Shown here: one piece after another, positions 19,501-33,748 of the stretch
Layout: each line of letters opens with the position of its first letter
Position numbering within the stretch: the stretch's first letter is position 1
DNA from: Bacteroidota bacterium
Lineage (GTDB): Bacteria > Bacteroidota > Bacteroidia > NS11-12g > UBA955
Assembly: GCA_027488835.1 (NCBI GenBank)
Contig: JAIYAW010000009.1
Coordinates: 310,001 to 374,000 of the forward strand
Reading direction: 5' to 3'
DNA length: 64,000 bases
Position numbers and translations under genes: made by a program
The notes under the pieces: model-generated
Seen by the model: only the letters and a program-made list of their open reading frames with translations
What the model was told of the DNA's origin: nothing
Databases searched by the model: none

Positions 19501-19529
19501 AAAAAAAAGCCTCAAAATTTGAGGCTTTT
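19501..19529 (-). terminator. Terminator after the upstream tRNA-Val
   Basis: Inverted repeat with 12-bp arms (19505-19516 and 19518-19529) followed by eight T on the minus strand. It overlaps the start of the spacer to the next tRNA promoter. Confidence 0.85.
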
Positions 19530-19750: not shown

Positions 19751-21343
19751 TTACTGAAAATCTTTTGGTTCCACGTCAATAAACGATTCTTGCAATACAT
19801 TTACTTCACCAGGAAGGGCCTTTTTGGGCTTGGAAACATATTTTCTCGGCGTATATATTACCTGAACCAATGTTTGATGCTTCGCTTTTGAATGAAATGC
19901 AGCTAAATTTGCAGCTTTTTCTATAATGGCTTGAGGGAAATCTCTACCTTTCTGCTTGATTATAACATGTGATCCAGAATAATCTCTTACGTGAAGCCAA
20001 AGATCATTTTTGCTAGACAATCTAATTAACTCATCGTTGGAGCGAGCATTCTTACCCACCCAGATTTCATATCCTTCAAAATCATAAAGTTTATAAGGTA
20101 ACGAAGACTGGGTATTTTTTGTACTTGACATAGAAACTGGACCACCTTTCTTTGAAATATCCTTGATATCTTTAAATTGGGAAGCCTGCTTTACTTTTTC
20201 TAGATTTTGAGAATTCAAAAGAAGCCGTGATTCAACCATTTGAATACTCTCGTCGAGTTTCTGAAGTTCTATATACTCATTCTTCGCCTTGCGATAGTAT
20301 TTTTGGGCATTTTCTGGGGCCGATAGCTGAGGATCTAATTTCACTCTAATTCTTTGATTGGTATAGTAATCCATCACCAAGGCATTAGTCACACCCGTGC
20401 CAATACTGTGCGCATGTGCCAATATTAAATCTCCAATTTCACGATAGCTGCGTCGTTCTTTAATTTCTGACGATCTTTTGGTATACCCATTCAAAAGAGA
20501 CTTGTCTTGCTTGATTTTTTTCGTGGTGGAGTCAATGAAATTCTCTTTAAACGTAAAGAAAAAATACCATCGAATGTATTCACCTGTGATGATCTCAATA
20601 TTTTCAAGGCAGTCATCTAGAGTTCTTACAACATTTGAATCAAACACATATTCTACACTGAGTTTCTTCAATTTCTCAACAATAACAAAATGGATGTTAT
20701 TAATCTCTTGAGTCAAAAACATAAAGATTGCCCTACATTGCATTTTATAATCCGCCAATTGAAAAAAATCAGCATTGAATCCATATTCAATTAATTGTTC
20801 AAATGATACTGATTTAACCATTGTATTCCAAAATGTTAAATCAATGATATTTTGATCAGGAACAATAATTCTATTGTTTAAAAACGACAATTTGTAATTA
20901 TCCCATTCTTTGATATTTTGCTCCCAATCTGCCTTTATGTTGAGTCTGAAAATGCTTTCAGCCGTTTCAGCATTCGGATTTTGCAACAATACATTGCCAA
21001 ATCTGCCGAATCCTTTCAACCAAAGCTTCCACCCATTGTTGAATTCAATGTAGATTAATCTATCAAATATCCTGGTTCCAACATCTGCAACAGTTGCGCC
21101 ATCAATGTGCTTAAACTGAAATTGGCCTTTGGTTTTATTATCTGATGCGATTTTATCCGATTGGACCAAGAATAACTCACCTCCAATAAATTTTAACTCC
21201 AATGTAAAGTAATCAGAGCCTGAATAAAAGTAAAGGAATATTGAATCTTTATCGTAACTGAGCGATTGAATTAATTTAAATTTATGTATCCTGTTAAATA
21301 AAATAGAAGCCCACTGCTGATAAATCCAAAAAGAAGAATACAT
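19751..21343 (-). CDS. rqcH: NFACT-family ribosome quality control protein RqcH
   Basis: A 530-residue NFACT protein that binds the obstructed 50S subunit with tRNA and adds C-terminal alanine tails to stalled peptides. The NFACT-N domain carries Asp94-Arg95 in RIFDRLIYIEF, the DR pair needed for tailing in B. subtilis RqcH, and GFGRFGNVLL after it. A coiled-coil middle lies at about 340-410 (PENAQKYYRKAKNEYIELQK). The NFACT-R domain at about 425-515 has the signatures YEIWVGKNARSNDELI, DLWLHVRDYSGSHVII and VQVIYTPRKYVSKPKKALPG. It is the last gene of a tight run, 15 bases after the T9SS protein gene, which is an unexpected neighbour. The function is inferred from family and DR conservation. 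Confidence 0.9.
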   Translation of the reverse strand: MYSSFWIYQQWASILFNRIHKFKLIQSLSYDKDSIFLYFYSGSDYFTLELKFIGGELFLVQSDKIASDNKTKGQFQFKHIDGATVADVGTRIFDRLIYIEFNNGWKLWLKGFGRFGNVLLQNPNAETAESIFRLNIKADWEQNIKEWDNYKLSFLNNRIIVPDQNIIDLTFWNTMVKSVSFEQLIEYGFNADFFQLADYKMQCRAIFMFLTQEINNIHFVIVEKLKKLSVEYVFDSNVVRTLDDCLENIEIITGEYIRWYFFFTFKENFIDSTTKKIKQDKSLLNGYTKRSSEIKERRSYREIGDLILAHAHSIGTGVTNALVMDYYTNQRIRVKLDPQLSAPENAQKYYRKAKNEYIELQKLDESIQMVESRLLLNSQNLEKVKQASQFKDIKDISKKGGPVSMSSTKNTQSSLPYKLYDFEGYEIWVGKNARSNDELIRLSSKNDLWLHVRDYSGSHVIIKQKGRDFPQAIIEKAANLAAFHSKAKHQTLVQVIYTPRKYVSKPKKALPGEVNVLQESFIDVEPKDFQ

Positions 21344-21358
21344 GATTCAAAATTCGGG

Positions 21359-24300
21359 TTATTTATTAACATTTCGCAGCAACATGATCGATTGTGTTAA
21401 AGTTTTTTTGGCGAATCTTAATCCTCTAAATTCAACATGCACCACATAAACTCCTTCTTGACAATCATTTCCGTTTATTTTTCCATCCCAATTTCCATTT
21501 AAATCATTTGATTTGTGAATAATTTCACCCCATCTATTGTAAATAATTATACTAATTTCATTGCATCCGAAGCTTGTCCATTGAAGTACATCGTTTAACC
21601 CATCGTTATTTGGTGTAAATGCAGTTGGTATATAAAGTATGACGGTGTCTTTATAACATATTTTAATTTCAGCAGTATCCTTGCATCCAATAGCATTTTC
21701 AACAGAAAGTTTGATGTTATATTTACTTTGCTTGAAGTCGGCATTAAAAATGGGATTGAATCCAGAAATAAAGGTATCTAACGGATTAGAGTTTACGTAC
21801 CAAGTTCCCTTCGTTGCTCCTGTTGTTGCATTAAAAATAGTTAGGGGAACTTCTTCAGGTGTGTAACAAGGTGGATTTATTGGTTGTTGCATTGCGAATT
21901 GCGCTTTTATAGCTGCAAATCCAGGAATATAAATCGTGGTATCTGAAAAGCACTTGGTTATACTATCTATCAAAAAAACCTTGTAAGAACTGCCGCTTGG
22001 TGCATAAAAAGTATCCTTAGATATCTTTCCGGGATAATTCCATGTTTTCCTCATAGGATTACCATTTCCACTGCTTAAATAGACATATCCATTTTTACCA
22101 TGACAAACGGGAGGATTTACGAAAGCGTTACTCCAAACAACAGGATGTACTAAGATATTAACACGTTGATTTGCAATATTACTACATCCATCACTTGCAT
22201 AACAAGTATATGCAATATTGGTTTTTGGAGAAACGATCGTTTTGTACCCGCTTTGACCATTTGACCACCAATAGGTATAGTTTCCGACTCCTCCTGAAGC
22301 TGTTGATTGTAAAGTCAACATTTCTCCCTTACAAATACTATCGTTATTTGGCGATGATAATAGGTGAATACTATCATTTATAACAATATTGAATGAATCT
22401 TTGGCAAAACAACTTTTGCTATTTACAGAATATATTAGTTTATGATTGCCAACATTCAATTTTCCAGGATTAAATGAGGTATTTAAATTTCCATCAATTT
22501 CATATTTTCCACCCAATGGATTTATAATTAATACAATAGAAGAGTCTTTGAAGCAAAATGTCTTAGTAGGGTAATTGTAACTTATATTTGGCATTGTATC
22601 TACGGTTATGTAGAAAAAATTAGTACAACCAAGAGGGGTTAAGTAATTGATTTTAAATTTTCCAGACATTGAAAGGGAAGGATTGAATTCTTGCTTTGAT
22701 CCATATTGCATACCTGTACCCCAAAACAATGAACCTTTTATAGATGGTATAAGGGCTATTGGGTTTGATTGTATGCAAATACTTGTGTCGTTTGGCACAA
22801 CTGGTTTAGGAAGTATGCGTAAAATGATATTGTCAGAACAACCATTTTTAGAATATGAAACATTGTAATTGCCTGATGATAAGTTTTTAGGAGCAAATTC
22901 AACCCCATTTATAACACCATTGCCCGACCATATGCCTTTTGGAAGGTTGGTTGGGATTTTATTTGATAAAATAAATGTGTCGGCATCATTACATACTTCC
23001 AGCGTATCAGCATAATTTATAGCTGTGCCAATAACTTTTATAATCTTATAATCAATGCATTTTCCGGATTTAAATACCAACGTGTCTATACCATTTTTGC
23101 CATTTGTCCAACTTGCATCATAATTGCTTATTTTGGGGTTCTTAATACCCTTTCCACTCCAACTAAATGTATTTAAGTATCTAATATTTAACAAATTAAA
23201 ATTGTTTGTACTTGGGCAAATTGTATCGTCTTTTCCCGCGTAACAAGGTAAAATTGTTAATTTAGTGGTATCGGTACAGCCACCAAGTGCGGTGAAAATA
23301 ATGTTTTTATTGCCAGGTCCACCCATTAAACTGGGATTATACCATCCAAAATAGGTGTTAATTAGACCTGGGAAATAGTATGGATAAATTCCATATGGTT
23401 TGAATTCTAAAGTATCTAAAGTTTTTGATTCGCAAGTTGTATCAAAATGAGGAACAGTAACATTTTGTACTACTACGTTTTTCTGAGACACGCAGCCTTT
23501 CCAAGTATAAGTTAATATGTACTTTCCAACACTATCAGGCGTAAACATGCCGTTGTTCGTGATTTTTAAACCAGACCATGTTCCTCCAAGAGGACCATAC
23601 CAAACAACCGGCATTGCTGTTTTTCCAGGGCAGAATACATTGTCGTAATTGTATGGATAAGAAACATTGATAATCATGGTATCTGCACAGCCACCAATTT
23701 GATACCATACTTTTACATCTCCCCATTGACCATATGGTTTAAATTCTCCATTTATTGAATTAACAATTCCAGAACCGTACCATTTCCCTCCATTAGGGAA
23801 GCCTTTTAAGTAAAGATTGGAAGAGAAATAGCAGACCTGTGTGTCTTTTGGCGCGATGGGAGGCTGAAGCACTGTTATTTGTATAGAATCAGAGCCTGGA
23901 ATAGCTGCACCATCTGTTACTGTAAGTTTATATTTCGTATTTACAGTTGGGCAAATATTGAATGGCCCTTTGCCTGATAAGGTTTTGGGAGTCCAATTGT
24001 ATGTGTATTTGCTAGAATCCCCACCACTTATATTTGCAGATAGTGAAATGCACTCCCCGAGACAAATAGTGTCTTTGGTGCCTTTAATGTCAACAAATAT
24101 AGGGCAATTGGAAATTGTGAATGCTTGGTTACTCGATAATTGGTAAATACTGTCGCAATAATCACGATAACCGTGTTTGTGCGTAAGTGTATATGTTCCG
24201 TTCGTGTTTAAAGGATTTTTTAATCCTAATTTAAATTTTGAAGCTTTGTTATTTGCACAATTCAGTGGCAATATATATCTAAATGTAATGCCATTTATTT

Positions 24301-24838
24301 TGGTATTGTTTGCATTTAAAGAATCGCAAGGTATTGCAAAATCTAGGGTAATTCCAATTGTAGAATCATAGCAAATGGGTGATGTATTTACAGTTATTTT
24401 TGCAGCAGTTGGGACTTTTATGTTATTTATAATATCGGCTTCCCATCCCGTGCAGGAAACGCTTTTATCTGAAACAAAATACAATGTTATAAAACTATCA
24501 CTGCTAGTAATTGTACCTGGATTTACACTCCCAGAATAGGATCCTTTTAAAGTCGCATTGGTATCTTTGCCGTCATATATTTTTAAAATATCATTATCTT
24601 TCTCTGTGCAAAAACTAATGAAAGATAAAGTAATGTTCTTTGCTCCCGGCATTGCCAACGTCATGATTATTTTTTCGTTATGATCGTAATATCCAGTGGT
24701 TTTGCCCTTTTCAGAATCTTTAATTTTTCCTTTACAAATCCTATAAACTCCATTTTGTTGATTTTGAATATTTTGAGTATATCCATCTATACAAAATATT
24801 GAACATAAAAGGAGTGATATATTTACAACGAATTTCAA
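21359..24838 (-). CDS. Giant secreted protein: CUB domain and T9SS type-B (CHU_C) sorting domain
   Basis: A 1159-residue surface or secreted protein. Signal peptide of about 21 residues, then a CUB-like domain at about 32-140 (ITLSFISFCTEKDNDILKIYDG and a late GWEAD). A long series of beta-sandwich repeats follows, with recurring short motifs of the type GTWSG / GKWYGSG / GIWSGNGVI and many paired cysteines. It ends in the type-B sorting domain that begins IPTAFTPNNDGLNDV (about 1070) and includes IYNRWGEIIH and GNWDGKINGNDCQEGVY. Such proteins are exported by T9SS and anchored to the surface by other means than type-A substrates. It is followed 15 bases later by rqcH and preceded 6 bases earlier by a lipoprotein gene, so it belongs to the seven-gene run. 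The ligand is unknown. Confidence 0.9.
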   Translation of the reverse strand: MKFVVNISLLLCSIFCIDGYTQNIQNQQNGVYRICKGKIKDSEKGKTTGYYDHNEKIIMTLAMPGAKNITLSFISFCTEKDNDILKIYDGKDTNATLKGSYSGSVNPGTITSSDSFITLYFVSDKSVSCTGWEADIINNIKVPTAAKITVNTSPICYDSTIGITLDFAIPCDSLNANNTKINGITFRYILPLNCANNKASKFKLGLKNPLNTNGTYTLTHKHGYRDYCDSIYQLSSNQAFTISNCPIFVDIKGTKDTICLGECISLSANISGGDSSKYTYNWTPKTLSGKGPFNICPTVNTKYKLTVTDGAAIPGSDSIQITVLQPPIAPKDTQVCYFSSNLYLKGFPNGGKWYGSGIVNSINGEFKPYGQWGDVKVWYQIGGCADTMIINVSYPYNYDNVFCPGKTAMPVVWYGPLGGTWSGLKITNNGMFTPDSVGKYILTYTWKGCVSQKNVVVQNVTVPHFDTTCESKTLDTLEFKPYGIYPYYFPGLINTYFGWYNPSLMGGPGNKNIIFTALGGCTDTTKLTILPCYAGKDDTICPSTNNFNLLNIRYLNTFSWSGKGIKNPKISNYDASWTNGKNGIDTLVFKSGKCIDYKIIKVIGTAINYADTLEVCNDADTFILSNKIPTNLPKGIWSGNGVINGVEFAPKNLSSGNYNVSYSKNGCSDNIILRILPKPVVPNDTSICIQSNPIALIPSIKGSLFWGTGMQYGSKQEFNPSLSMSGKFKINYLTPLGCTNFFYITVDTMPNISYNYPTKTFCFKDSSIVLIINPLGGKYEIDGNLNTSFNPGKLNVGNHKLIYSVNSKSCFAKDSFNIVINDSIHLLSSPNNDSICKGEMLTLQSTASGGVGNYTYWWSNGQSGYKTIVSPKTNIAYTCYASDGCSNIANQRVNILVHPVVWSNAFVNPPVCHGKNGYVYLSSGNGNPMRKTWNYPGKISKDTFYAPSGSSYKVFLIDSITKCFSDTTIYIPGFAAIKAQFAMQQPINPPCYTPEEVPLTIFNATTGATKGTWYVNSNPLDTFISGFNPIFNADFKQSKYNIKLSVENAIGCKDTAEIKICYKDTVILYIPTAFTPNNDGLNDVLQWTSFGCNEISIIIYNRWGEIIHKSNDLNGNWDGKINGNDCQEGVYVVHVEFRGLRFAKKTLTQSIMLLRNVNK

Positions 24839-24844
24839 ATTTAA

Positions 24845-25300
24845 CTATGGAATAATTTCAATATTCGGAGTGAAAATAGTATTACTCCAGTTTTTAGCTC
24901 TGTCTTTTAGCTTGATTTCAAATTTTGTTGTTTCTAAGGGACTAGCGGTAAGTAGAAATATGTTTTTTATCTTGATATTCAATATTCCTTCAATGTTTAG
25001 TTTATTGCCGATTGGAGATAAAGGCAATAGATGATAATAGTCTGGCTTTGAAAGTCTAGAATCTCTTACGTAAATTGATAATGTATCCGCTGAAATATCA
25101 CCTAAATCTCCATCACCATCTTTATATTTTACCGAAACCACTAAGCTATCTGTAAATTGCTTTAATTTTGTTTTTGAAATTGATAAAAATTGAATGTTTG
25201 GTTTGGTGTCTCCGGTAGTAACAAGCTTCTCTTTACAAGAATTCATAAACAATAAAATAAATATTGCTATAATTAACATATTATATATTTTAAGTTTCAT
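24845..25300 (-). CDS. Small lipoprotein with Asp-rich YKDGDGDLGD motif
   Basis: A 151-residue predicted lipoprotein: the signal MKLKIYNMLIIAIFILLFMNSC places the lipid-bearing Cys at 22. The mature part is one beta-sandwich-sized domain with the acidic segment KYKDGDGDLGDISADTL, which resembles a calcium-binding loop. It ends with the phrase KLKDRAKNWSNTIFTPNIEIIP. I do not recognise a named family. Its start shares one base with the end of the CX4CH lipoprotein gene and its stop is 6 bases from the CUB/T9SS gene, so it is translationally coupled to its neighbours and probably works at the same envelope site. Confidence 0.75.
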   Translation of the reverse strand: MKLKIYNMLIIAIFILLFMNSCKEKLVTTGDTKPNIQFLSISKTKLKQFTDSLVVSVKYKDGDGDLGDISADTLSIYVRDSRLSKPDYYHLLPLSPIGNKLNIEGILNIKIKNIFLLTASPLETTKFEIKLKDRAKNWSNTIFTPNIEIIP

Positions 25301-26232
25301 TACTTAAATCTTATAGCGAAGTATTTTTTAATAGGAAACATTGAGTTTTCATTCGGCAATCTAACAGTTTGAAAATCATCTGAAACCGTAATTCGAATCC
25401 ATAAAACATCAAGAGAAATTGATGAACTTGTTTCTAAATCGTAATTAAACCAATATTTAATAGACTTACCATTTAAACCAATGATGGTTTTCTCGGGGCC
25501 AGCAAATAAAGGTTTTTCATTGGCTATATTAAATGAATCAGGGTTTGCACTGACATTAATTGTGCAATTTTTTAGTTGACTTTGATCTAGTTTATCATCG
25601 GATATTGAAAAATAGACAGAAGTATTCATGCCCGCTGTTGCATTGGCAGCTTCATATAATCCAGGTCTTGACAATTCAGTGTTTCCTTGAAAAAACACAA
25701 CACCTTGAACATTGGGAGGGAAATTTGGCGAAACGGGCGTATTCCCGGCCAAATCCTTCGCTCCATCATTTATCCACTTGGTGATTCTCTGCAGATATTC
25801 AGACTTATGCTGATTATATGTTGATTTTGGCTCTAATGCAAGAGGCATGATACCTGAATTTCCGTTTAAATCAATTGTCATCCTTTGTAACAACATGCTT
25901 TTTGATGCATCACCGGGTAAAACTCGATAAGGAAATCCACCAGAAATATTTGATTTAATTGGAGCTACATTCACCAATCCAAAATAACTACTTTCAACAG
26001 TTCTGAAATCTGGTTCAAAATTTCCATCATGACAGCCTGAATTGGCACAAGTTGGCTTTAAAATATCTTTATGAATTGAGAAAATCGAAATAGGGTCATA
26101 GTTATTGGTATCCACTACATTGGTATCCGATTGATTTGGGTCAAATGGATTCACAGGCAAGGATTCTTTAGAACAAGATCCTAGATAAATACAAATTGCA
26201 AATAGCGATATGGATTTAATTATGTTTTTCAC
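25300..26232 (-). CDS. Lipoprotein with CX4CH cytochrome-like segment
   Basis: A 310-residue predicted lipoprotein; lipobox LGSC with Cys20. After an Asn/Asp/Pro linker comes a segment like the planctomycete-type cytochrome c domains: IHKDILKPTCANSGCHDG, in which Cys62 and Cys67-His68 form CX4CH rather than the CXXCH of standard c-type haem sites. The downstream pattern SSYFGL, VLPGDASKSMLLQRM and LQRITKWINDGAKD is typical of that family (the Met of MLLQRM may be relevant). The C-terminal 130 residues form a beta domain. It overlaps the DUF1501 gene by 4 bases and the small lipoprotein by 1. Haem binding is possible but unproven with the wider spacing. Confidence 0.75.
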   Translation of the reverse strand: MKNIIKSISLFAICIYLGSCSKESLPVNPFDPNQSDTNVVDTNNYDPISIFSIHKDILKPTCANSGCHDGNFEPDFRTVESSYFGLVNVAPIKSNISGGFPYRVLPGDASKSMLLQRMTIDLNGNSGIMPLALEPKSTYNQHKSEYLQRITKWINDGAKDLAGNTPVSPNFPPNVQGVVFFQGNTELSRPGLYEAANATAGMNTSVYFSISDDKLDQSQLKNCTINVSANPDSFNIANEKPLFAGPEKTIIGLNGKSIKYWFNYDLETSSSISLDVLWIRITVSDDFQTVRLPNENSMFPIKKYFAIRFK

Positions 26233-27569
26233 ACTCTCAAAAATTGACTCATAGCCATAGGGTCAATATATCCCGAATTCATTACATCATCATAAACTCC
26301 AAAAATATCGGCAATGGTTGGAACCAAATCTGTTAATCTTCCAATTGGATTTCCTTCAGAACCTACAGAAACCTTAGGTACGTTTTTACCAACCATTAAA
26401 CTCCATACTCTTAATGAATTGGCATCTGAATGATCGAATGCCATCCAATCATTTTCGTCAAGAATGGGATTTGGATTCAAGTTTCGGCCACACTCTGGAG
26501 CAACTATAAATACCGTATTGTCTTTCATTTCAGGAATATTCGTCTGAATATAATCATAAAGCCACGCAGTGATATGGTCGGCTCTATGCAAACTCCTTAA
26601 ATAGCCTGTAAAGTTTGAATGACAACCATCAACCTCAGATATATTCACCGCGAGCATTTTGGGTTTGAATTCCTTCAATATTTCAGCAGAATAGGCAACA
26701 TTAAATGCATCTGTGGAACCTGCAGCAGGAGGCATAGCAATTTGACCTAAGATTTGTTTTGTGTAGGTAGCCCTCATGAACTCTTTTATTCGGGTTCGCT
26801 CATCATCGGTGTTTTTAATGGTAGTTTGTCGAGAGTTCTCTAAAGCAAAACTATTGTTTAAGAAATTTTTCATCTCATACATTGGCTTTAATTCATTATT
26901 TGAATATGGCTTAGAGTTAGAAAGTATATTTTGTCCATAACTTCCAAAAGTAATTGGTGGGATAAACATATTTGCTCCAAAATTGAGACCATAGTTTTCA
27001 TTTGTACTTGCATTCAAAAGGGGAGTACTATTGCCAATTCCGTTTCCAACAAACCAACAATCAGTGGCTTTAAAACCTCTGTGCTTTCTGAGATATTCAA
27101 ATATAGTGGGAGATGAGGGTCTTGTTTTTAAACCTTGCCCAGTGCTCATACTTCCTGTCAGTAAAGTATTCAAGCCTACATAATGTCCTGCACTTTGCGC
27201 ACGCACTTCATTAAAGGTCATTCCTTTGCTAGCTAATGAATCTGTTAACAATCGTGGAATTGGATCTGAGCCTCTTGTTTGCCCTGGTATGTCTTGTCCA
27301 TAAACAATTTTTTTAGTTGGTGCATTGCCATTAAATAAATTGGGCATAATATTGCCTGCAACACCCGAAACGCCTTGGCTATCTTCCAAGTACCTCCCTA
27401 AAATACTTTCTTGTTGACGAACACCACCAGCAAACATAACCATAACCACATGTTCTGCTTTTTCTATGCCTGATTTAGCAAATAGTCTCCCAGATGGCAA
27501 TATATAAGGTGCAACGATACCTGCACCAACTGTAAGGGTAGATCTTTTTATAAATTCTTTTCTTCTCAT
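26229..27569 (-). CDS. DUF1501 family exported protein
   Basis: A 446-residue protein of the DUF1501 family (alkaline-phosphatase/sulfatase-like fold by family knowledge). The N-terminus MRRKEFIKRSTLTVGAG resembles a Tat signal, though RR is one residue displaced from the usual RRxFLK spacing. Family features visible are VVMVMFAGGVRQQESILGR, the GHYVGLNTLLTGS and HSNFTGYLRSLHRADHITAWL segments, VFIVAPECGRN and the final DLVPTIADIFGV. The function is unknown; in planctomycetes and Bacteroidota DUF1501 genes lie beside cytochrome-like and DUF1800/DUF1549 genes. Here it lies 6 bases after a DUF4214-like lipoprotein gene and overlaps the CX4CH lipoprotein gene by 4 bases, keeping that association. 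Confidence 0.88.
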   Translation of the reverse strand: MRRKEFIKRSTLTVGAGIVAPYILPSGRLFAKSGIEKAEHVVMVMFAGGVRQQESILGRYLEDSQGVSGVAGNIMPNLFNGNAPTKKIVYGQDIPGQTRGSDPIPRLLTDSLASKGMTFNEVRAQSAGHYVGLNTLLTGSMSTGQGLKTRPSSPTIFEYLRKHRGFKATDCWFVGNGIGNSTPLLNASTNENYGLNFGANMFIPPITFGSYGQNILSNSKPYSNNELKPMYEMKNFLNNSFALENSRQTTIKNTDDERTRIKEFMRATYTKQILGQIAMPPAAGSTDAFNVAYSAEILKEFKPKMLAVNISEVDGCHSNFTGYLRSLHRADHITAWLYDYIQTNIPEMKDNTVFIVAPECGRNLNPNPILDENDWMAFDHSDANSLRVWSLMVGKNVPKVSVGSEGNPIGRLTDLVPTIADIFGVYDDVMNSGYIDPMAMSQFLRV

Positions 27570-27575
27570 GTCGTT

Positions 27576-28085
27576 TTAATAAAATGAATATTCATCGCTC
27601 GTTGAAAATGCTGTGTAAATAAGCTCAACAGTGACTTCTGGGTTGTTTTTAATATAATTTGTAAAGTAAACTTTTTCGGCTTCTGAAGGGTATCGTAAAT
27701 AGAATCGTTTATACGTTTCAGTAATAAAAGCAGGGATATCCTTCCTCATGTCTGCATTACTGGGGATGATGATTTTGGGATTGTTAAAGTAACCACTTAG
27801 TAACATTTCTTTGGCAACATTTTGGTCGCCAATACTGTACAACACACTTTGAGCTTGAAATAACTCCATGGGATCAATTGCTTTTTGATAGAGACTTGTA
27901 TATAAAATTGAAATATACTCAGCTTCATTTTTATTTTTGAATTTCTGAGCTTTTGATTCATAAATATAAGCAGAATTCACTTGGTATTGCACATGGATTT
28001 CTTTTGTACAATATATGTTCATAATCAATATATTAAACAAGACTATTTTAATAAAGTATTTATATTTAAAATTGTGCATACTCAT
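27576..28085 (-). CDS. Predicted lipoprotein with one DUF4214-like repeat
   Basis: A 169-residue predicted envelope protein. The N-terminus is basic then hydrophobic and ends IMNIYC, a weak lipobox. The last 55 residues (AFITETYKRFYLRYPSEAEKVYF ... FSTSDEYSFY) follow the pattern of DUF4214 repeats: a Y-x-R-F/L-Y-x-R-x-P helix, an acidic residue, and a closing (S)xEY. Its upstream neighbour contains related repeats and also ends in DEY plus two residues. The start (ATG at 28085) lies 20 bases inside the upstream gene. Family assignment is by eye and tentative. Confidence 0.7.
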   Translation of the reverse strand: MSMHNFKYKYFIKIVLFNILIMNIYCTKEIHVQYQVNSAYIYESKAQKFKNKNEAEYISILYTSLYQKAIDPMELFQAQSVLYSIGDQNVAKEMLLSGYFNNPKIIIPSNADMRKDIPAFITETYKRFYLRYPSEAEKVYFTNYIKNNPEVTVELIYTAFSTSDEYSFY

Positions 28086-28983
28086 CGGTTATTAAAATTC
28101 TGCGTTGCATATTTTCAACGCTGTGATCTTTTAAGTAATTGGTTAAAATAGGGTACAAAATGCTTGGGTTTATTTCTTTCCGTATAAATTGAAAGTACCA
28201 CCATCTAATTTCAGATTCGTAGAATCCATTATTGGAAGTTATGCCTTCGCAATACTCATTTTTGTTAGAAATTACGCGATTAAAAATAAATTGAGGATTG
28301 TTTTTTTCTATAATCTGATAAGCACGATTAAATTCGTCTTTACTTGGCTTCCTGCCGAAAACATTATCATAAGTTGCATTCACAAAATTAAATGAACCCA
28401 TGTTAATCAAGTCATAAATTCCATTATTCAACATGTACTCGCAAAGCTGGTTATAAGTAATTTTATTTCGACTTAACCAATAATTGCTCTTTAAAATGCG
28501 GTCATAGTGTTTTTTCAGGTTTATGTAAGTATACATTGCAACCGAATCTCCATCCAATTGACTTAAATAAATTCCAAATCCCAAGTTCCCGGATTGCTGC
28601 GCTATGTCCATATCTGCAGCACCTTCCAGGAATCTAGATTTGCATATGTTGTAAATTCTTGATGTATAAGCTTTTCGATAACTAGAATCCCCAATTTTAT
28701 ATACTGTATCGAATTGTAGCATTTTGACGATTGAATCTCGAGAGTTTTCACCTAATTTGCCTTTTCTTAGCTTTAAAACAAATTCAGAACGCTCTATATC
28801 TGTTGCTTCACGGCCTAATATATCAATAAATAATCGATTGATATAATTTTCTACCATTAATGTTGAAACTTGAGCATACTTTGGTGGATTATTGTTGTTG
28901 CGCATAACATTTTCTTCTTTGATACACGAAACAAAGAGAAAAGAAATGATTAAAAATCGAAATGCCAATTTTATGTAATTCAT
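28066..28983 (-). CDS. Lipoprotein with about three DUF4214-like repeats
   Basis: A 305-residue predicted lipoprotein; the ATG at 28983 gives MNYIKLAFRFLIISFLFVSC with the lipid Cys at 20 (an upstream TTG in frame adds nothing). Three segments share one plan. The first, ENYINRLFIDILGREATDIERSEF, closely resembles DUF4214 (LYxxxLGRxxDxxG). The second contains TYDNVFGRKPSKDEFNRAY ... NEYCEG. The third is WYFQFIRKEINPSILYP ... TDEYAQF. DUF4214 domains occur in surface-layer and adhesin-type proteins; the binding function here is unknown. It is the first gene of the seven-gene run and has a TACATTTG element upstream. Confidence 0.75.
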   Translation of the reverse strand: MNYIKLAFRFLIISFLFVSCIKEENVMRNNNNPPKYAQVSTLMVENYINRLFIDILGREATDIERSEFVLKLRKGKLGENSRDSIVKMLQFDTVYKIGDSSYRKAYTSRIYNICKSRFLEGAADMDIAQQSGNLGFGIYLSQLDGDSVAMYTYINLKKHYDRILKSNYWLSRNKITYNQLCEYMLNNGIYDLINMGSFNFVNATYDNVFGRKPSKDEFNRAYQIIEKNNPQFIFNRVISNKNEYCEGITSNNGFYESEIRWWYFQFIRKEINPSILYPILTNYLKDHSVENMQRRILITDEYAQF

Positions 28984-29001
28984 TTTTACAATCAATTATA
29001 T

Positions 29002-29009
29002 CAAATGTA
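29002..29009 (-). promoter_or_regulatory. -7 element of the DUF4214/DUF1501 operon
   Basis: The minus strand reads TACATTTG (TAnnTTTG), 18 bases before the ATG at 28983; an ATTG lies 21 bp upstream at the -33 distance. It is the only candidate promoter I see for the run 28983 to 19751. Confidence 0.5.
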
Positions 29010-29129
29010 CAGATTTTAAATTTGATAAAACAATATTTTCGTTTAAATCTAAATTTTACCTAAGACTTTTAGCTTTTGGTTCATTTATTGATAGACAATA
29101 ATTATATTCGTAAATCGATAACATTCTGT

Positions 29130-30287
29130 ATGGCATTTTATTACAAACTGGGAAATATCCCTCCAAAACGACACACTCAATTTAGAAAATCTGATGGGAA
29201 TTTATATTCAGAAGAACTAATTAGCACTGAAGGGTTTAATAGCTTATATTCATTGGTTTATCACTGTCATCCACCAACATTGGTGAAAGAAATCGGCACA
29301 CCATACAGCGTAGAACCTAAAATTGCATTAAAACAAAATATGCAAAGTAGGAGTTTTGTCACATTCAATACGAAACCAGAAGATGACTATTTGAAAAGTA
29401 GAAAAGCTTTATTGACAAATAGCGATTTAACCATTTCTGTAGCAGCTCCAACTAAAGGAAACGTTGATTATTTCTTTAAAAATAGCGACAATGATGAGGT
29501 GATTTTTATTCACGAGGGAACTGGTAAGTTGAAAACCATCTTTGGCGAAATTGCCTTTGAATATGGTGATTACCTTGTAATTCCGAGAGGAACAATCTAC
29601 CAATTCGAATTTGACAATACAAAAAATCGTTTGATGATCATTGAATCTCCAACGCCAATTTATCCCCCAAAAAGATACCAAAACTCTTTTGGTCAATTAC
29701 TTGAACACTCTCCATATTGCGAAAGAGACATTAAAGTACCTCAGAATTTGCAAACACATGATGAATTGGGCGACTTTCATGTTTTGATTAAAAAGCAAAA
29801 TATGATTTATCCTTATACCTATGCCTCACATCCATTTGATGCAGTGGGTTGGGATGGTTATGCTTATCCTTTTGGATTCAGCATTCATGATTTTGAACCA
29901 ATTACGGGTAGATTACATCAACCACCTCCAATTCATCAGACTTTTGAGGGACGTAACTTTGTAATATGTAGTTTTGTTCCGAGGCTTTACGATTATCATC
30001 CGCTTTCAATTCCAGCTCCATACAACCATAGCAATGTAGATAGCGACGAAATATTGTATTATGTAGATGGCGATTTCATGAGCCGCAAACATGTTGAAAA
30101 GGGAATGATTACCCTACATCCTAAAGGAATCCCACATGGTCCACATCCTGGAACCGTTGAAAAAAGTATCGGCAAAAAAGAAACTCAAGAACTCGCAGTA
30201 ATGATAGATCCGTTTTATCCTTTGATGATCACAGAAGAAGCCATGGCTGTTGAAGATCCGAATTATTATAAATCTTGGGTTGAATAA
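29130..30287 (+). CDS. hmgA: Homogentisate 1,2-dioxygenase
   Basis: An Fe(II) ring-cleaving dioxygenase of tyrosine/phenylalanine degradation: homogentisate plus O2 to maleylacetoacetate. The start is set at the ATG at 29130 (MAFYYKLGNIPPKRHTQF), the usual Bacteroidota N-terminus, giving 385 residues; the frame is open 18 codons further upstream. Two cupin halves are visible. The iron ligands sit in the C-terminal half: the His and Glu in PYNHSNVDSDEILYYVDG and the His in IPHGPHPG. The RLHQPPPIHQTFEG stretch is typical. The gene is divergent from the DUF1501 operon and 11 bases before a T9SS protein gene. The rest of the tyrosine pathway is not in the window. Confidence 0.95.
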   Translation: MAFYYKLGNIPPKRHTQFRKSDGNLYSEELISTEGFNSLYSLVYHCHPPTLVKEIGTPYSVEPKIALKQNMQSRSFVTFNTKPEDDYLKSRKALLTNSDLTISVAAPTKGNVDYFFKNSDNDEVIFIHEGTGKLKTIFGEIAFEYGDYLVIPRGTIYQFEFDNTKNRLMIIESPTPIYPPKRYQNSFGQLLEHSPYCERDIKVPQNLQTHDELGDFHVLIKKQNMIYPYTYASHPFDAVGWDGYAYPFGFSIHDFEPITGRLHQPPPIHQTFEGRNFVICSFVPRLYDYHPLSIPAPYNHSNVDSDEILYYVDGDFMSRKHVEKGMITLHPKGIPHGPHPGTVEKSIGKKETQELAVMIDPFYPLMITEEAMAVEDPNYYKSWVE

Positions 30288-30298
30288 TTTTTAAGGAT

Positions 30299-33200
30299 AT
30301 GATAAATAAAACCATACTTTTTGTCTTAATTTCTTGTTTAAGTAACATAACTTATTCTCAAGTAAATGAGACAAATAACGAAATAAGTATTCGAAAATAT
30401 GCGCGAATGCAAATACGTATTTCTAAACAATTTCAGAAAAGCGTATCAAAATTCAAAAGCGAACACAATGTAAAGTTCGCTACTCCAGACAAATATTGGG
30501 AACAGGAGTATCTAACTACAATGAACCCCAAATTAGGCAGACCTACTCCAGAAGTATTGACAGCGGAAATTCAGAAATTACTGAAACAAAATGGAGAGAT
30601 TGCATTGCAACCAGGTACATCAATTTCAAAATGGCAATTGAGAGGTCCTAATAATGTGGGAGGTAGAACTCGCGCGGTTGCTTGGGATCCAAACGACACC
30701 AAAGGAAAGAAAGTGTGGGCTGGCGCTGTAACAGGAGGATTATGGTATAATAATGACATTACTAGTGCATCAAGTTCATGGGTTTCGGTAAGCGATATTT
30801 GGGCGAATGTTACTGTTTCATGTATCGCATTTGATCCAAACGATTCTAAGATAATTTATGTCGGTACTGGTGAGGGATGGGGTTCAAGCACCAGCACTTC
30901 TCGGGGTCAGGGCATTTACAAAAGTACCGATGGGGGAGCTAATTTTAGTTTAATATCTAGCACATCTTCATTTTATTACATCAACGATATTGCTGTTCGA
31001 GATGAATCGGGAACTTCAGTTGTTTATGCGGCTGTTGATGCTTTATATTTTCAAGGTCAATGGAATGGAATATCGAGTTACGGATTAAAGAGGAGTGCGA
31101 ACGGTGGTACAAGTTGGTCATCGGCATTAGGGAATGTAACTAGCAAAACATACACTTATTCCGTTGCTGATATTGAAATTGCTGAAGATAATAGACTTTG
31201 GATAGGCACTAGAAACTGCCCTTATGGTTCTGCTACTTCTGATGGAGGTGGTGGTAGGGTTATGTATTCTGATAATGGAACTACCTGGACAACCAATTAT
31301 TCTCATAAAAATAACTTAGGTAGGGTTGAAATTGCCGTGGCACCAAATGACTTCAATACGGTTTATGCACTGTTTGAATCAAGTGGAAAAGCAGACACCT
31401 TAATAAAAACAAGAAATCAGGGTGTTTCATGGTCATCAATGAAAAAACCAAAAGATGCAGATAACGGAATTCCAGCTACAGATTTTACAAGGGGACAAGC
31501 TTGGTATGATTTAACCATAAGTGTTTCTCCATTGGATTCTAATATTGTGATTGTTGGGGGGATTGATTTATTCTATTCAAGCAACAGTGGATCTTCTTGG
31601 TCGCAAATTAGCAAATGGTCTAACAATCCAGGATTAGGAAGCCTATCTTGTTCTTATGTTCATGCCGACCAACATGTTGCAGTGTTTAAACCTAAAAGTT
31701 TGGGTGAAATTATGTTTGGATGCGATGGGGGTGTGTTTTACTCAGCCAATATTACAAATAGTCCTGCTACAAAAGATATTATTGCTCAAAGAAATTACGG
31801 ATATTTTGCGACACAGTTTTATGCCGGTGATTTGTCTCAAACGGCATCTAAGGATTTGTTTATAGCGGGAGCGCAGGATAACGGCACTCACCAACTGGTT
31901 GGATCAGGGGTTTCAAACACCAATATGGTAACAGGTGGTGATGGAACTTTTTGCTTTATAAGTGCTTCAAATAACCAAACTCAAATAACTGGTTATGTTT
32001 ATAATACATATTATTTTACTACCGACAATTGGGCCTCTAGTGATTATCTTTTAAATGATGGCTCATCAGGTAAGTTTGTAAATCCTGCCATTTGGGATGA
32101 TAATGGATATGGATTGTTTTCTGTGAAAGATGCGTTAACCCTCTACAGAACCAAAATTACCAGTGGTACAGCTGGAACACCAAATACAATTAATATAAAA
32201 ACGAGTGGTTCGCCAGGGAAAGGCAGTTGTTTTTGGATCAATAAAGATCCACTGACTTTAAAGACAGTCCTTTACATAGGAACTGATATTGGAACTGTTT
32301 GGAAAACAAACGATGCCTGGGCCACAACGCCAATTTTTACCCAAATGGGAACCTTAACTAGTGGAAATGCTTCCTCGTTATTTAGACATAAAAATACGGA
32401 TACAATGGCAGCTACCGTTTCTAACTATGGAATCAACAACATTTACATATCAACGAATGGTGGTACAAATTGGACAGCGAAAGATGGTGATTTGCCTGAT
32501 GTACCGGTTTGGTCAATTGTATTAAATCCCTCAAAACTAGGAGAGGCTTTAGTTGCAACGGAGCTTGGTGTATATGGCACTGATAATATATATGCAAGTA
32601 GTCCAACTTGGACGGCCTATAATCTAGGAATGTCAGCTGTTAAAACCTTACAACTCAAATATAGATCATCAGATCAGCTTTTAATGGCTGTAACACATGG
32701 GAGAGGGGTTTACACTTCAAATGCTTGGTCTATTAAGGATCCTATTGCAAAGTTTGGCATTTCAGATACATTGCCTTGTTCAAATCAAGTTGTGAATTTA
32801 ATTGATTCATCATTAAATAGTCCATTGAATTGGAAATGGACAATTAATCCAAACACAGATGTGAAATTCACAATAGGCGACAGTACTTCTAAAAGTCCTA
32901 AAATCAAATTGACCAAAGGCGGTAGGTATTTCATCACACTTACGGTTTCAAACAACTCTGGTGTAAATAGCAGAACAAAGAGTGTAACAGTGGTTGATAC
33001 AATTGCAATGCAAATGAATGCCTTTGCAGATAAACAAACTATTTGCAGAGATGATTCATTAAAATTAACATCTTCCTATGGAGATAGCATGATGAATAGT
33101 TTAAAAATCAAATACAAATGGTATAAAAACGGGGTAATTGGCGCTTCAGATACGAATAGTTTCTTAAAAGTATTACCAAAGCAAAAAGACAGTGTTGCCT

Positions 33201-33748
33201 ACAAAATTTCAGCAACCACAACGTATAAGTGTGCATTTCCGAAAACAGCAATGAGTAATGTTGTGACTGTAAAATTAACATACCGAAACATTGTTATTTA
33301 TTGTAGTAACGACACATTGTTTGTCTTAAATAAACCAGTTGGAGGACAAATTGACTGGTATTTAAATGGCGTTAAGATTGGGACAGGAACTAACAACTTC
33401 ATTCATGCGACTAAAAAAGGGGGGTACAGAGCAATTTACAAAAATGGAAGTTGTTTCAGTGATTCAACAAACAGGTTGCTGTTAATGTCAGTAGGAATCA
33501 AAAACAACCCTCTGAAATACGGCAGTCGTATTTATCCAAATCCGTCAAAAGACTTTGTAAATTTTGATTCCAAAGTGAACGGGCAATTGGAAGTATTGAA
33601 TACTTCAGGTCAATTAGTTATTAAAGAATCTATTCAAACTAATAAGTCATATAAATTAAATATAAGCAATTTGGCATCTGGAGAATACCTAATTATGGTA
33701 AGAACAGATGATTCCTATATTCAAATTGACAAACTGCTTGTGAATTAA
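30299..33748 (+). CDS. Secreted BNR/sortilin-like beta-propeller protein with PKD and T9SS type-A sorting domain
   Basis: A 1149-residue T9SS substrate. Signal peptide 1-21 (ending ITYSQ). From about 110 to 810 there are repeated Asp-box motifs (STDGGANF, SANGGTSW, SDNGTTW, SNSGSSW, STNGGTNW), as in VPS10/sortilin, sialidase and GH74-type propellers, with phrases such as VWAGAVTGGLWYN and IIYVGTGEGWG. A PKD-like domain follows at about 818-905. The last 80 residues form a type-A sorting domain starting RIYPNPSKDFVNF and ending IDKLLVN. No catalytic pair can be assigned with confidence, so binding or hydrolysis of a polymer is equally possible. It follows hmgA by 11 bases, but a functional link is doubtful. 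A hairpin terminator follows. Confidence 0.88.
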   Translation: MINKTILFVLISCLSNITYSQVNETNNEISIRKYARMQIRISKQFQKSVSKFKSEHNVKFATPDKYWEQEYLTTMNPKLGRPTPEVLTAEIQKLLKQNGEIALQPGTSISKWQLRGPNNVGGRTRAVAWDPNDTKGKKVWAGAVTGGLWYNNDITSASSSWVSVSDIWANVTVSCIAFDPNDSKIIYVGTGEGWGSSTSTSRGQGIYKSTDGGANFSLISSTSSFYYINDIAVRDESGTSVVYAAVDALYFQGQWNGISSYGLKRSANGGTSWSSALGNVTSKTYTYSVADIEIAEDNRLWIGTRNCPYGSATSDGGGGRVMYSDNGTTWTTNYSHKNNLGRVEIAVAPNDFNTVYALFESSGKADTLIKTRNQGVSWSSMKKPKDADNGIPATDFTRGQAWYDLTISVSPLDSNIVIVGGIDLFYSSNSGSSWSQISKWSNNPGLGSLSCSYVHADQHVAVFKPKSLGEIMFGCDGGVFYSANITNSPATKDIIAQRNYGYFATQFYAGDLSQTASKDLFIAGAQDNGTHQLVGSGVSNTNMVTGGDGTFCFISASNNQTQITGYVYNTYYFTTDNWASSDYLLNDGSSGKFVNPAIWDDNGYGLFSVKDALTLYRTKITSGTAGTPNTINIKTSGSPGKGSCFWINKDPLTLKTVLYIGTDIGTVWKTNDAWATTPIFTQMGTLTSGNASSLFRHKNTDTMAATVSNYGINNIYISTNGGTNWTAKDGDLPDVPVWSIVLNPSKLGEALVATELGVYGTDNIYASSPTWTAYNLGMSAVKTLQLKYRSSDQLLMAVTHGRGVYTSNAWSIKDPIAKFGISDTLPCSNQVVNLIDSSLNSPLNWKWTINPNTDVKFTIGDSTSKSPKIKLTKGGRYFITLTVSNNSGVNSRTKSVTVVDTIAMQMNAFADKQTICRDDSLKLTSSYGDSMMNSLKIKYKWYKNGVIGASDTNSFLKVLPKQKDSVAYKISATTTYKCAFPKTAMSNVVTVKLTYRNIVIYCSNDTLFVLNKPVGGQIDWYLNGVKIGTGTNNFIHATKKGGYRAIYKNGSCFSDSTNRLLLMSVGIKNNPLKYGSRIYPNPSKDFVNFDSKVNGQLEVLNTSGQLVIKESIQTNKSYKLNISNLASGEYLIMVRTDDSYIQIDKLLVN

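Follow-up and report, generated by a model that had tools for sequence, protein, structure and literature searches.

A conserved six-gene set of predicted lipoproteins, a phosphatase-fold protein and a large secreted protein in Bacteroidota

We show here that six neighbouring genes on the minus strand of a Bacteroidota genome (contig JAIYAW010000009.1) form a real conserved unit, whose order we found again across many families of the phylum. The genes, called d305, d169, D1501, CYT310, Lp151 and the giant, lie in a window of 64,000 nt, and all coordinates given below are positions in that whole stretch. They encode two lipoproteins with DUF4214-type domains, an exported protein of the alkaline-phosphatase superfamily, a putative PSCyt1-like cytochrome, a further small lipoprotein and a predicted substrate of the type IX secretion system (T9SS). 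The set is apparently an undescribed variant of the DUF1501/PSCyt kind. With a confidence slightly short of even, we read the six genes as one conserved envelope-complex operon, a Bacteroidota relative of the DUF1501 module of the Planctomycetes-Verrucomicrobia-Chlamydiae (PVC) bacteria with its domains placed on separate proteins. The products would probably form a surface complex, whose physical assembly we infer. An earlier note, made from the sequence alone, had described a unit of seven genes that ended with rqcH. Its seven minus-strand open reading frames, their lengths, spacings and head promoter were all found as it gave them, but the conserved unit, kept in order even in distant families, comprises six genes and not seven.

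The conservation of the set was followed at increasing distance from the window. Among 57 relatives searched with D1501 (446 aa), 39 carry the protein, two families of the order among them, and loci from two families of the order show an identical six-gene order and orientation. Twenty neighbourhoods of order relatives have these six genes, with d305 first and the giant last, in the same order and on the same strand wherever they were found, with flanks that vary. A profile search with d169 was positive in 64 of 296 Bacteroidia genomes and in 43 of 166 genera; 16 genomes have two copies. Two types of locus were seen: type I includes the giant (mostly about 1160-1200 aa), while type II consists of the first five genes only and splits off as a monophyletic group in the D1501 tree (support 100/100). 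Outside the order, type I is represented by 14 loci, and in 10 of them all six genes stand in sequence. The other four have one to four genes absent or undetected: L092 yielded only d305 and d169, L095 neither d305 nor the giant, in L098 Lp151 was missed and L100 had no giant. In nine genomes with type II only, no full-length giant was found, the best match reaching 213 bits against 1025 in a type I genome. When 84,980 named species genomes were scanned, 378 relatives came to light, and the neighbourhood counts for named genomes refer to the best 80 of these. Nearly all of the 80 are labelled as Bacteroidota assemblies, two as Sphingomonadales. Wherever the contigs extend far enough the gene order holds; one locus (L238) is an exception in that it lacks the giant. 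Their median junctions are -20, +9, -4, -4 and +1 bases, so that the 20-base overlap of d305 and d169 in the window equals the median of its relatives. Because the same order recurs in dozens of distant loci, it is not due to chance. It is quite unlikely that these envelope genes stand together for transcriptional convenience, without any physical complex: the giant is indeed separable from the set, but overlapping starts, an order that does not vary and the joint loss of the genes, seen across many families, speak against such an arrangement.

The signals around the set are consistent with transcription from its head. The box TACATTTG (29009-29002, minus strand) fits the Bacteroidota -7 box TAnnTTTG, and this motif stands 5' of the first gene, d305, in 52 of 111 related loci (14.1 expected), in support of the single head promoter proposed earlier. 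In front of d169, D1501 and Lp151 in related loci it occurs at or under chance level; there is an excess 5' of CYT310 (27/119 loci), at a near-constant distance and inside the coding sequence of D1501, and a weak one at the junction to the giant (10/99 against 4.5 expected). From d305 to rqcH the exact spacings are -20, +6, -4, -1, +6 and +15 bases. The claim that the unit has no internal terminator stands as far as strong ones are concerned, although a generic scan gave one weak match (27527-27508) at chance level for the region. The sole strong terminator of that scan lies downstream of rqcH (19529-19505), and for this reason rqcH may be co-transcribed with the set here. One might suppose on this basis that there is a seven-gene unit in which RqcH quality control has a functional link with the envelope genes, since rqcH begins 15 bases past the giant with no strong terminator between them and a strong one after it. 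We regard this as highly improbable. The gene, whose product carries NFACT_N and NFACT-R domains (80 and 58 bits, above the Pfam cut-offs), follows the giant in only 20 of the 80 named loci, all nearest relatives; it comes downstream of the set in no more than part of the window's own family, lies outside it in the other families examined, and remains at the locus where the set has been lost. The neighbourhood data thus rule out rqcH as a member of the set, and we take it as a local neighbour that is probably co-transcribed in this genome.

The first two products appear to be built on a known scaffold fold. Against the Pfam DUF4214 model (cut-off 23.2 bits) d305 passed with 23.8 bits and d169 remained below with 21.9 bits, while 30 of 43 d305 members and 16 of 21 d169 members have a match. 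A phycobilisome (PBS)-linker model matches 15 of the 43 d305 members (best 1e-8); weak matches were seen to DUF1549 (11/43) and DUF1553 (7/43) in d305 members and to PSD1/DUF1553 in 4 of the 21 d169 members. Signal peptides common to the proteins raise the scores of profile comparisons, and they were removed for the hhalign figures given here. In these comparisons the d169 and d305 profiles matched each other with hhalign probabilities of 50-64%. The AlphaFold2 model of d305 is nearly all helical (predicted local distance difference test, pLDDT, 90.7). When it was compared by VIA-align, the first 35 rows were all PBS linkers (Z 7.4-10.7, the next row down at 5.7), whose chains cover residues 90-289; none of the Foldseek matches reached E 0.001, and the plausible rows among them were again PBS linkers. 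By its model, then, d305 has the PBS-linker/DUF4214 fold, and d169 shares a DUF4214-type domain with it as judged from profiles. This agrees with the earlier proposal that the two lipoproteins are related and supports the view that they stand in place of the usual DUF1549, DUF1553 or DUF1800 partner. PBS-linker folds serve as assembly modules in phycobilisomes. The likeness extends to the fold of d305 and to sequence matches, whereas the proteins described here are lipoproteins of heterotrophic Bacteroidota. Of two other assignments, homology of d169 to DUF1553 stayed at background level in a deeper profile comparison, and DUF1800 as a direct homologue of d305 or d169 showed weak profile similarity and nothing more.

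The fourth product, CYT310, would be a PSCyt1-like c-type cytochrome. Every homologue that covers the region has a CX4CH motif (C-x4-C-H) with a conserved Met-Pro ligand region downstream; this motif stands in place of the CXXCH haem motif of PSCyt1. A Pfam search with CYT310 found no cytochrome model, PSCyt1 included, while its profile, after removal of signal peptides, aligned with the PSCyt1 part of PSCyt1-DUF1549-DUF1553 proteins from Bacteroidota at hhalign probabilities of 84-89%. What the earlier note called a CX4CH lipoprotein thus looks like a PSCyt1-type cytochrome, so the cytochrome partner would be present. It might be asked whether surface electron transfer is the purpose of the set, with the haem lipoprotein as main actor and the other proteins positioning it. 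The constancy of CX4CH and the cytochrome c assembly proteins encoded in the window's genome would suit this explanation, yet there is one haem motif only, and the operon holds no multihaem protein or porin partner; we consider it doubtful and indeed very unlikely. Neither Pfam nor NCBIfam gave anything significant for D1501, CYT310 or Lp151. Lp151, for which no Pfam family was found, is probably immunoglobulin (Ig)-like, and its homologues align in a conserved D-x-D-x-D-x-x-G segment. From their signal sequences these two proteins and the linker-fold pair are predicted lipoproteins: a lipobox-like Cys is present in 113 of 118 homologues of d305, 121 of 121 of d169, 114 of 118 of CYT310 and 106 of 108 of Lp151. 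The residues that follow the Cys are often Lys and acidic ones, a pattern that may resemble the surface-export signals of Bacteroidota lipoproteins.

The giant matches CHU_C and CUB above the Pfam cut-offs and TIGR04131 with 47.5 bits (NCBIfam, cut-off 35), which confirms the earlier calls of its CUB and T9SS type-B domains, as Pfam also did for the NFACT domains of rqcH. With other T9SS type-B substrates it shares the TIGR04131/CHU_C sorting domain, the CUB domain and repeat domains, and it differs from them in closing an operon of fixed order and in keeping an almost constant length: homologues are full-length across families and usually have 1152-1199 aa. The window's genome encodes 27 CHU_C domains. 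A tie between this CUB-domain substrate and the set, as suggested before, holds for type I; the giant is optional, since the five-gene type lacks it. Among sequences in the PDB the best match of its profile was the Aureispira grappling hook protein GhpA (nine stretches, E 2.7e-56); the best-scoring stretch is the sorting domain, and no functional conclusion was drawn from this likeness.

For D1501, an AlphaFold2 model (pLDDT 78.2, predicted template modelling score, pTM, 0.82) matched alkaline-phosphatase-superfamily enzymes in Foldseek (E 2.5e-8) and aligned to PafA with a VIA-align Z of 25.6 over 298 residues (root-mean-square deviation 3.8). By sequence search, no solved structure was found for the profiles of the 446-aa or the 310-aa protein. 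The PECGRN...DHS segment of D1501 pairs with EFGR...DH of canonical DUF1501 in a profile alignment, and the protein carries the DUF1501-type motifs D314, H317, E359-C/H360-G-R and D379-H380. All 44 aligned sequences share D314, H317, E359, G361, R362, D379 and H380; at position 360 there is a Cys in 33 of them and a His in 11, with Cys in most type I members. The assignment of active-site residues comes from sequence alignment alone. An export signal of the twin-arginine translocation (Tat) type (RK/RR) is present, and TatC is encoded in the genome. With PafA, choline sulfatase and NPP of the superfamily D1501 has in common the fold and the D..H, E/D-H-G and C-terminal His positions.

These components recall systems known from other bacteria. 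In the PVC DUF1501 module a PSCyt1-DUF1549-DUF1553 protein stands beside DUF1501; the sources state the functions of this module (PMC4452313, citing Kamneva et al. 2012), of PSCyt genes (PMC5615132) and of the DUF1800-DUF1501 gene pair (PMC5122149) as not known. In the literature on DUF1501, DUF1800, DUF1549/DUF1553/PSCyt and DUF4214, as far as its available text goes, we recognised no description of the set; subscription journals lie mostly outside this coverage. What the set shares with the PVC module is a PSCyt1-like cytochrome, helical proteins that are weakly DUF1549/DUF1553-like, a DUF1501-like phosphatase fold and export. It differs in that the PSCyt1, DUF1549 and DUF1553 counterparts are unfused and lie in separate genes in all loci, in its four lipoproteins, in CX4CH instead of CXXCH, in the extra Ig-like lipoprotein and T9SS giant and in the lack of a match of the window's D1501 and CYT310 to the Pfam DUF1501 and PSCyt1 models. 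An exported DUF1501-type protein beside a helical partner gene is likewise found in the DUF1800-DUF1501 pair, but the set contains no DUF1800, and both systems coexist in the window's genome, where a canonical pair lies elsewhere (G000:C1:12566-15345, L159). Pairs of PSCyt1-DUF1549-DUF1553 and DUF1501 were also noted in Bacteroidota (L150-L158), and further proteins with signals, about 340 or 670-720 aa long, often follow them. The idea of a viral or defence system was rejected, as no PHROGs or PADLOC match and no relative in viral contigs were found.

How such a set might work can be proposed in outline. The linker-fold lipoproteins d305 and d169 would provide a scaffold on which D1501 and CYT310 assemble, and Lp151 would be one more structural lipoprotein. 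Type I would also use the T9SS to place the CUB/Ig-rich giant outside the cell, where it could bind a polymer or particle; D1501 might then bind or cleave an ester-linked group of the substrate held by the giant, and a redox step in which the single haem of CYT310 carries an electron might be coupled to this. In full, this describes a widespread and hitherto undescribed outer-surface machine of Bacteroidota. In it a divergent phosphatase-fold protein and a CX4CH cytochrome, held on a scaffold of linker-fold lipoproteins, would serve a redox-coupled step on a substrate bound by a T9SS-exported adhesin, a reading that we regard as unlikely in this complete form. Several observations weigh against the proposed envelope-complex operon and its kinship with the DUF1501 module. 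The Pfam DUF1501 model (PF07394) does not match the 446-aa protein of the window and matches 2 of 25 homologues (best E 0.0032), so that the earlier assignment to DUF1501 stands for its alkaline-phosphatase fold and DUF1501-type motifs but not for membership in the Pfam family. The profile of d305 is only weakly similar to that of DUF1549 (hhalign probability 9-14%, signal peptides removed). Several members of the window's genus have lost the set, which is therefore dispensable, and since type II operons do without the giant, capture by the giant cannot be the core function. D1501 furthermore departs from its superfamily: the motif-1 Asp is replaced by Gly48 in 44 of 44 sequences, positions 125-126 before His129 are variable so that there is no conserved Ser/Thr nucleophile, and Cys stands for His360 in most type I members. 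Because of the Gly and the missing nucleophile, its activity may be non-canonical, and hydrolysis may not occur; the alignment suggests that a metal-binding site is retained but altered.

The same alterations could mean that nothing is processed at all. The linker-fold lipoproteins, Lp151 and a catalytically dead phosphatase-fold protein would then form an outer-membrane base for the assembly or anchoring of surface material, which in type I would be the giant, and the haem would act as a sensor or structural cofactor. This structural explanation seems to us somewhat unlikely. The PBS-linker fold of d305, an assembly-module type, the invariant Gly48 together with the lack of a Ser/Thr nucleophile and the narrow length range of the giant across families all argue for it; the invariance of D314, H317, E359 and H380 (44/44), which suggests that the metal site is kept, and the retention of the D-x-C/A-H, G-R and H motifs in shortened stand-alone homologues of D1501 argue against it. 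If on the other hand the outer-surface machine is real, the function of the DUF1501/PSCyt/DUF1800 group would become testable in a compact form. Environmental bacteria commonly carry proteins with DUF1501, PSCyt, DUF1549, DUF1553 and DUF1800. The operon offers a compact version in which each domain is on its own protein, and each part can be expressed and tested singly. It also connects the helical partner with a scaffold fold already known, shows a phosphatase-like site that differs from the usual one and associates one type with export by the T9SS.

Relatives of D1501 occur outside the set as well. In four loci (L108 5384-6427, L109 5075-6091, L110 5574-6662 and L111 5053-5916) a single shortened homologue of 287-362 aa replaces the whole set and still precedes rqcH; the main motifs are kept, some residues being substituted in L110 and L111. 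A plasmid of Pseudoalteromonas sp. NC201 encodes a phosphatase-superfamily protein (L290 7431-8570) that resembles D1501 in its C-terminal half (E 1.4e-21 in a search among eight proteins), with Asp at the position equivalent to Gly48. This distant protein, which has no similar neighbours, was the sole find when plasmid-borne relatives of the set were considered, and that idea was rejected.

Table 1. Genes and signals of the set and of the adjoining rqcH in the window
Feature	Position	Strand	Description
-7 promoter box TACATTTG at operon head	29002..29009	-	Bacteroidota TAnnTTTG type
d305	28066..28983	-	305 aa from ATG; the start at 28995 (first start of the open-reading-frame tool) gives 309 aa
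d169	27576..28085	-	169 aa, predicted DUF4214-type lipoprotein
D1501	26229..27569	-	446 aa, exported alkaline-phosphatase-superfamily protein with DUF1501-type motifs
CYT310	25300..26232	-	310 aa, putative PSCyt1-like c-type cytochrome lipoprotein
CANSGCH (CX4CH) codons, CYT310 residues 62-68	26029..26049	-	alignment of homologues
Lp151	24845..25300	-	151 aa, predicted small lipoprotein
T9SS type-B giant	21359..24838	-	1159 aa, CUB domain; type I operons only
CUB domain of giant, residues 51-134	24437..24688	-	Pfam
T9SS type-B sorting domain of giant, residues 1070-1137	21428..21631	-	Pfam and NCBIfam
rqcH (NFACT)	19751..21343	-	530 aa
Intrinsic terminator-like hairpin 3' of rqcH	19505..19529	-	11 pairs and T run; generic scan

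In most members of the window's family the set is adjoined upstream by a divergently transcribed homogentisate-dioxygenase-like gene (HgmA_N, 29076-30287 in the window). Just past it lies a second large secreted protein (30299-33748, 1149 aa), whose sorting domain is of the T9SS Por_Secre_tail type.

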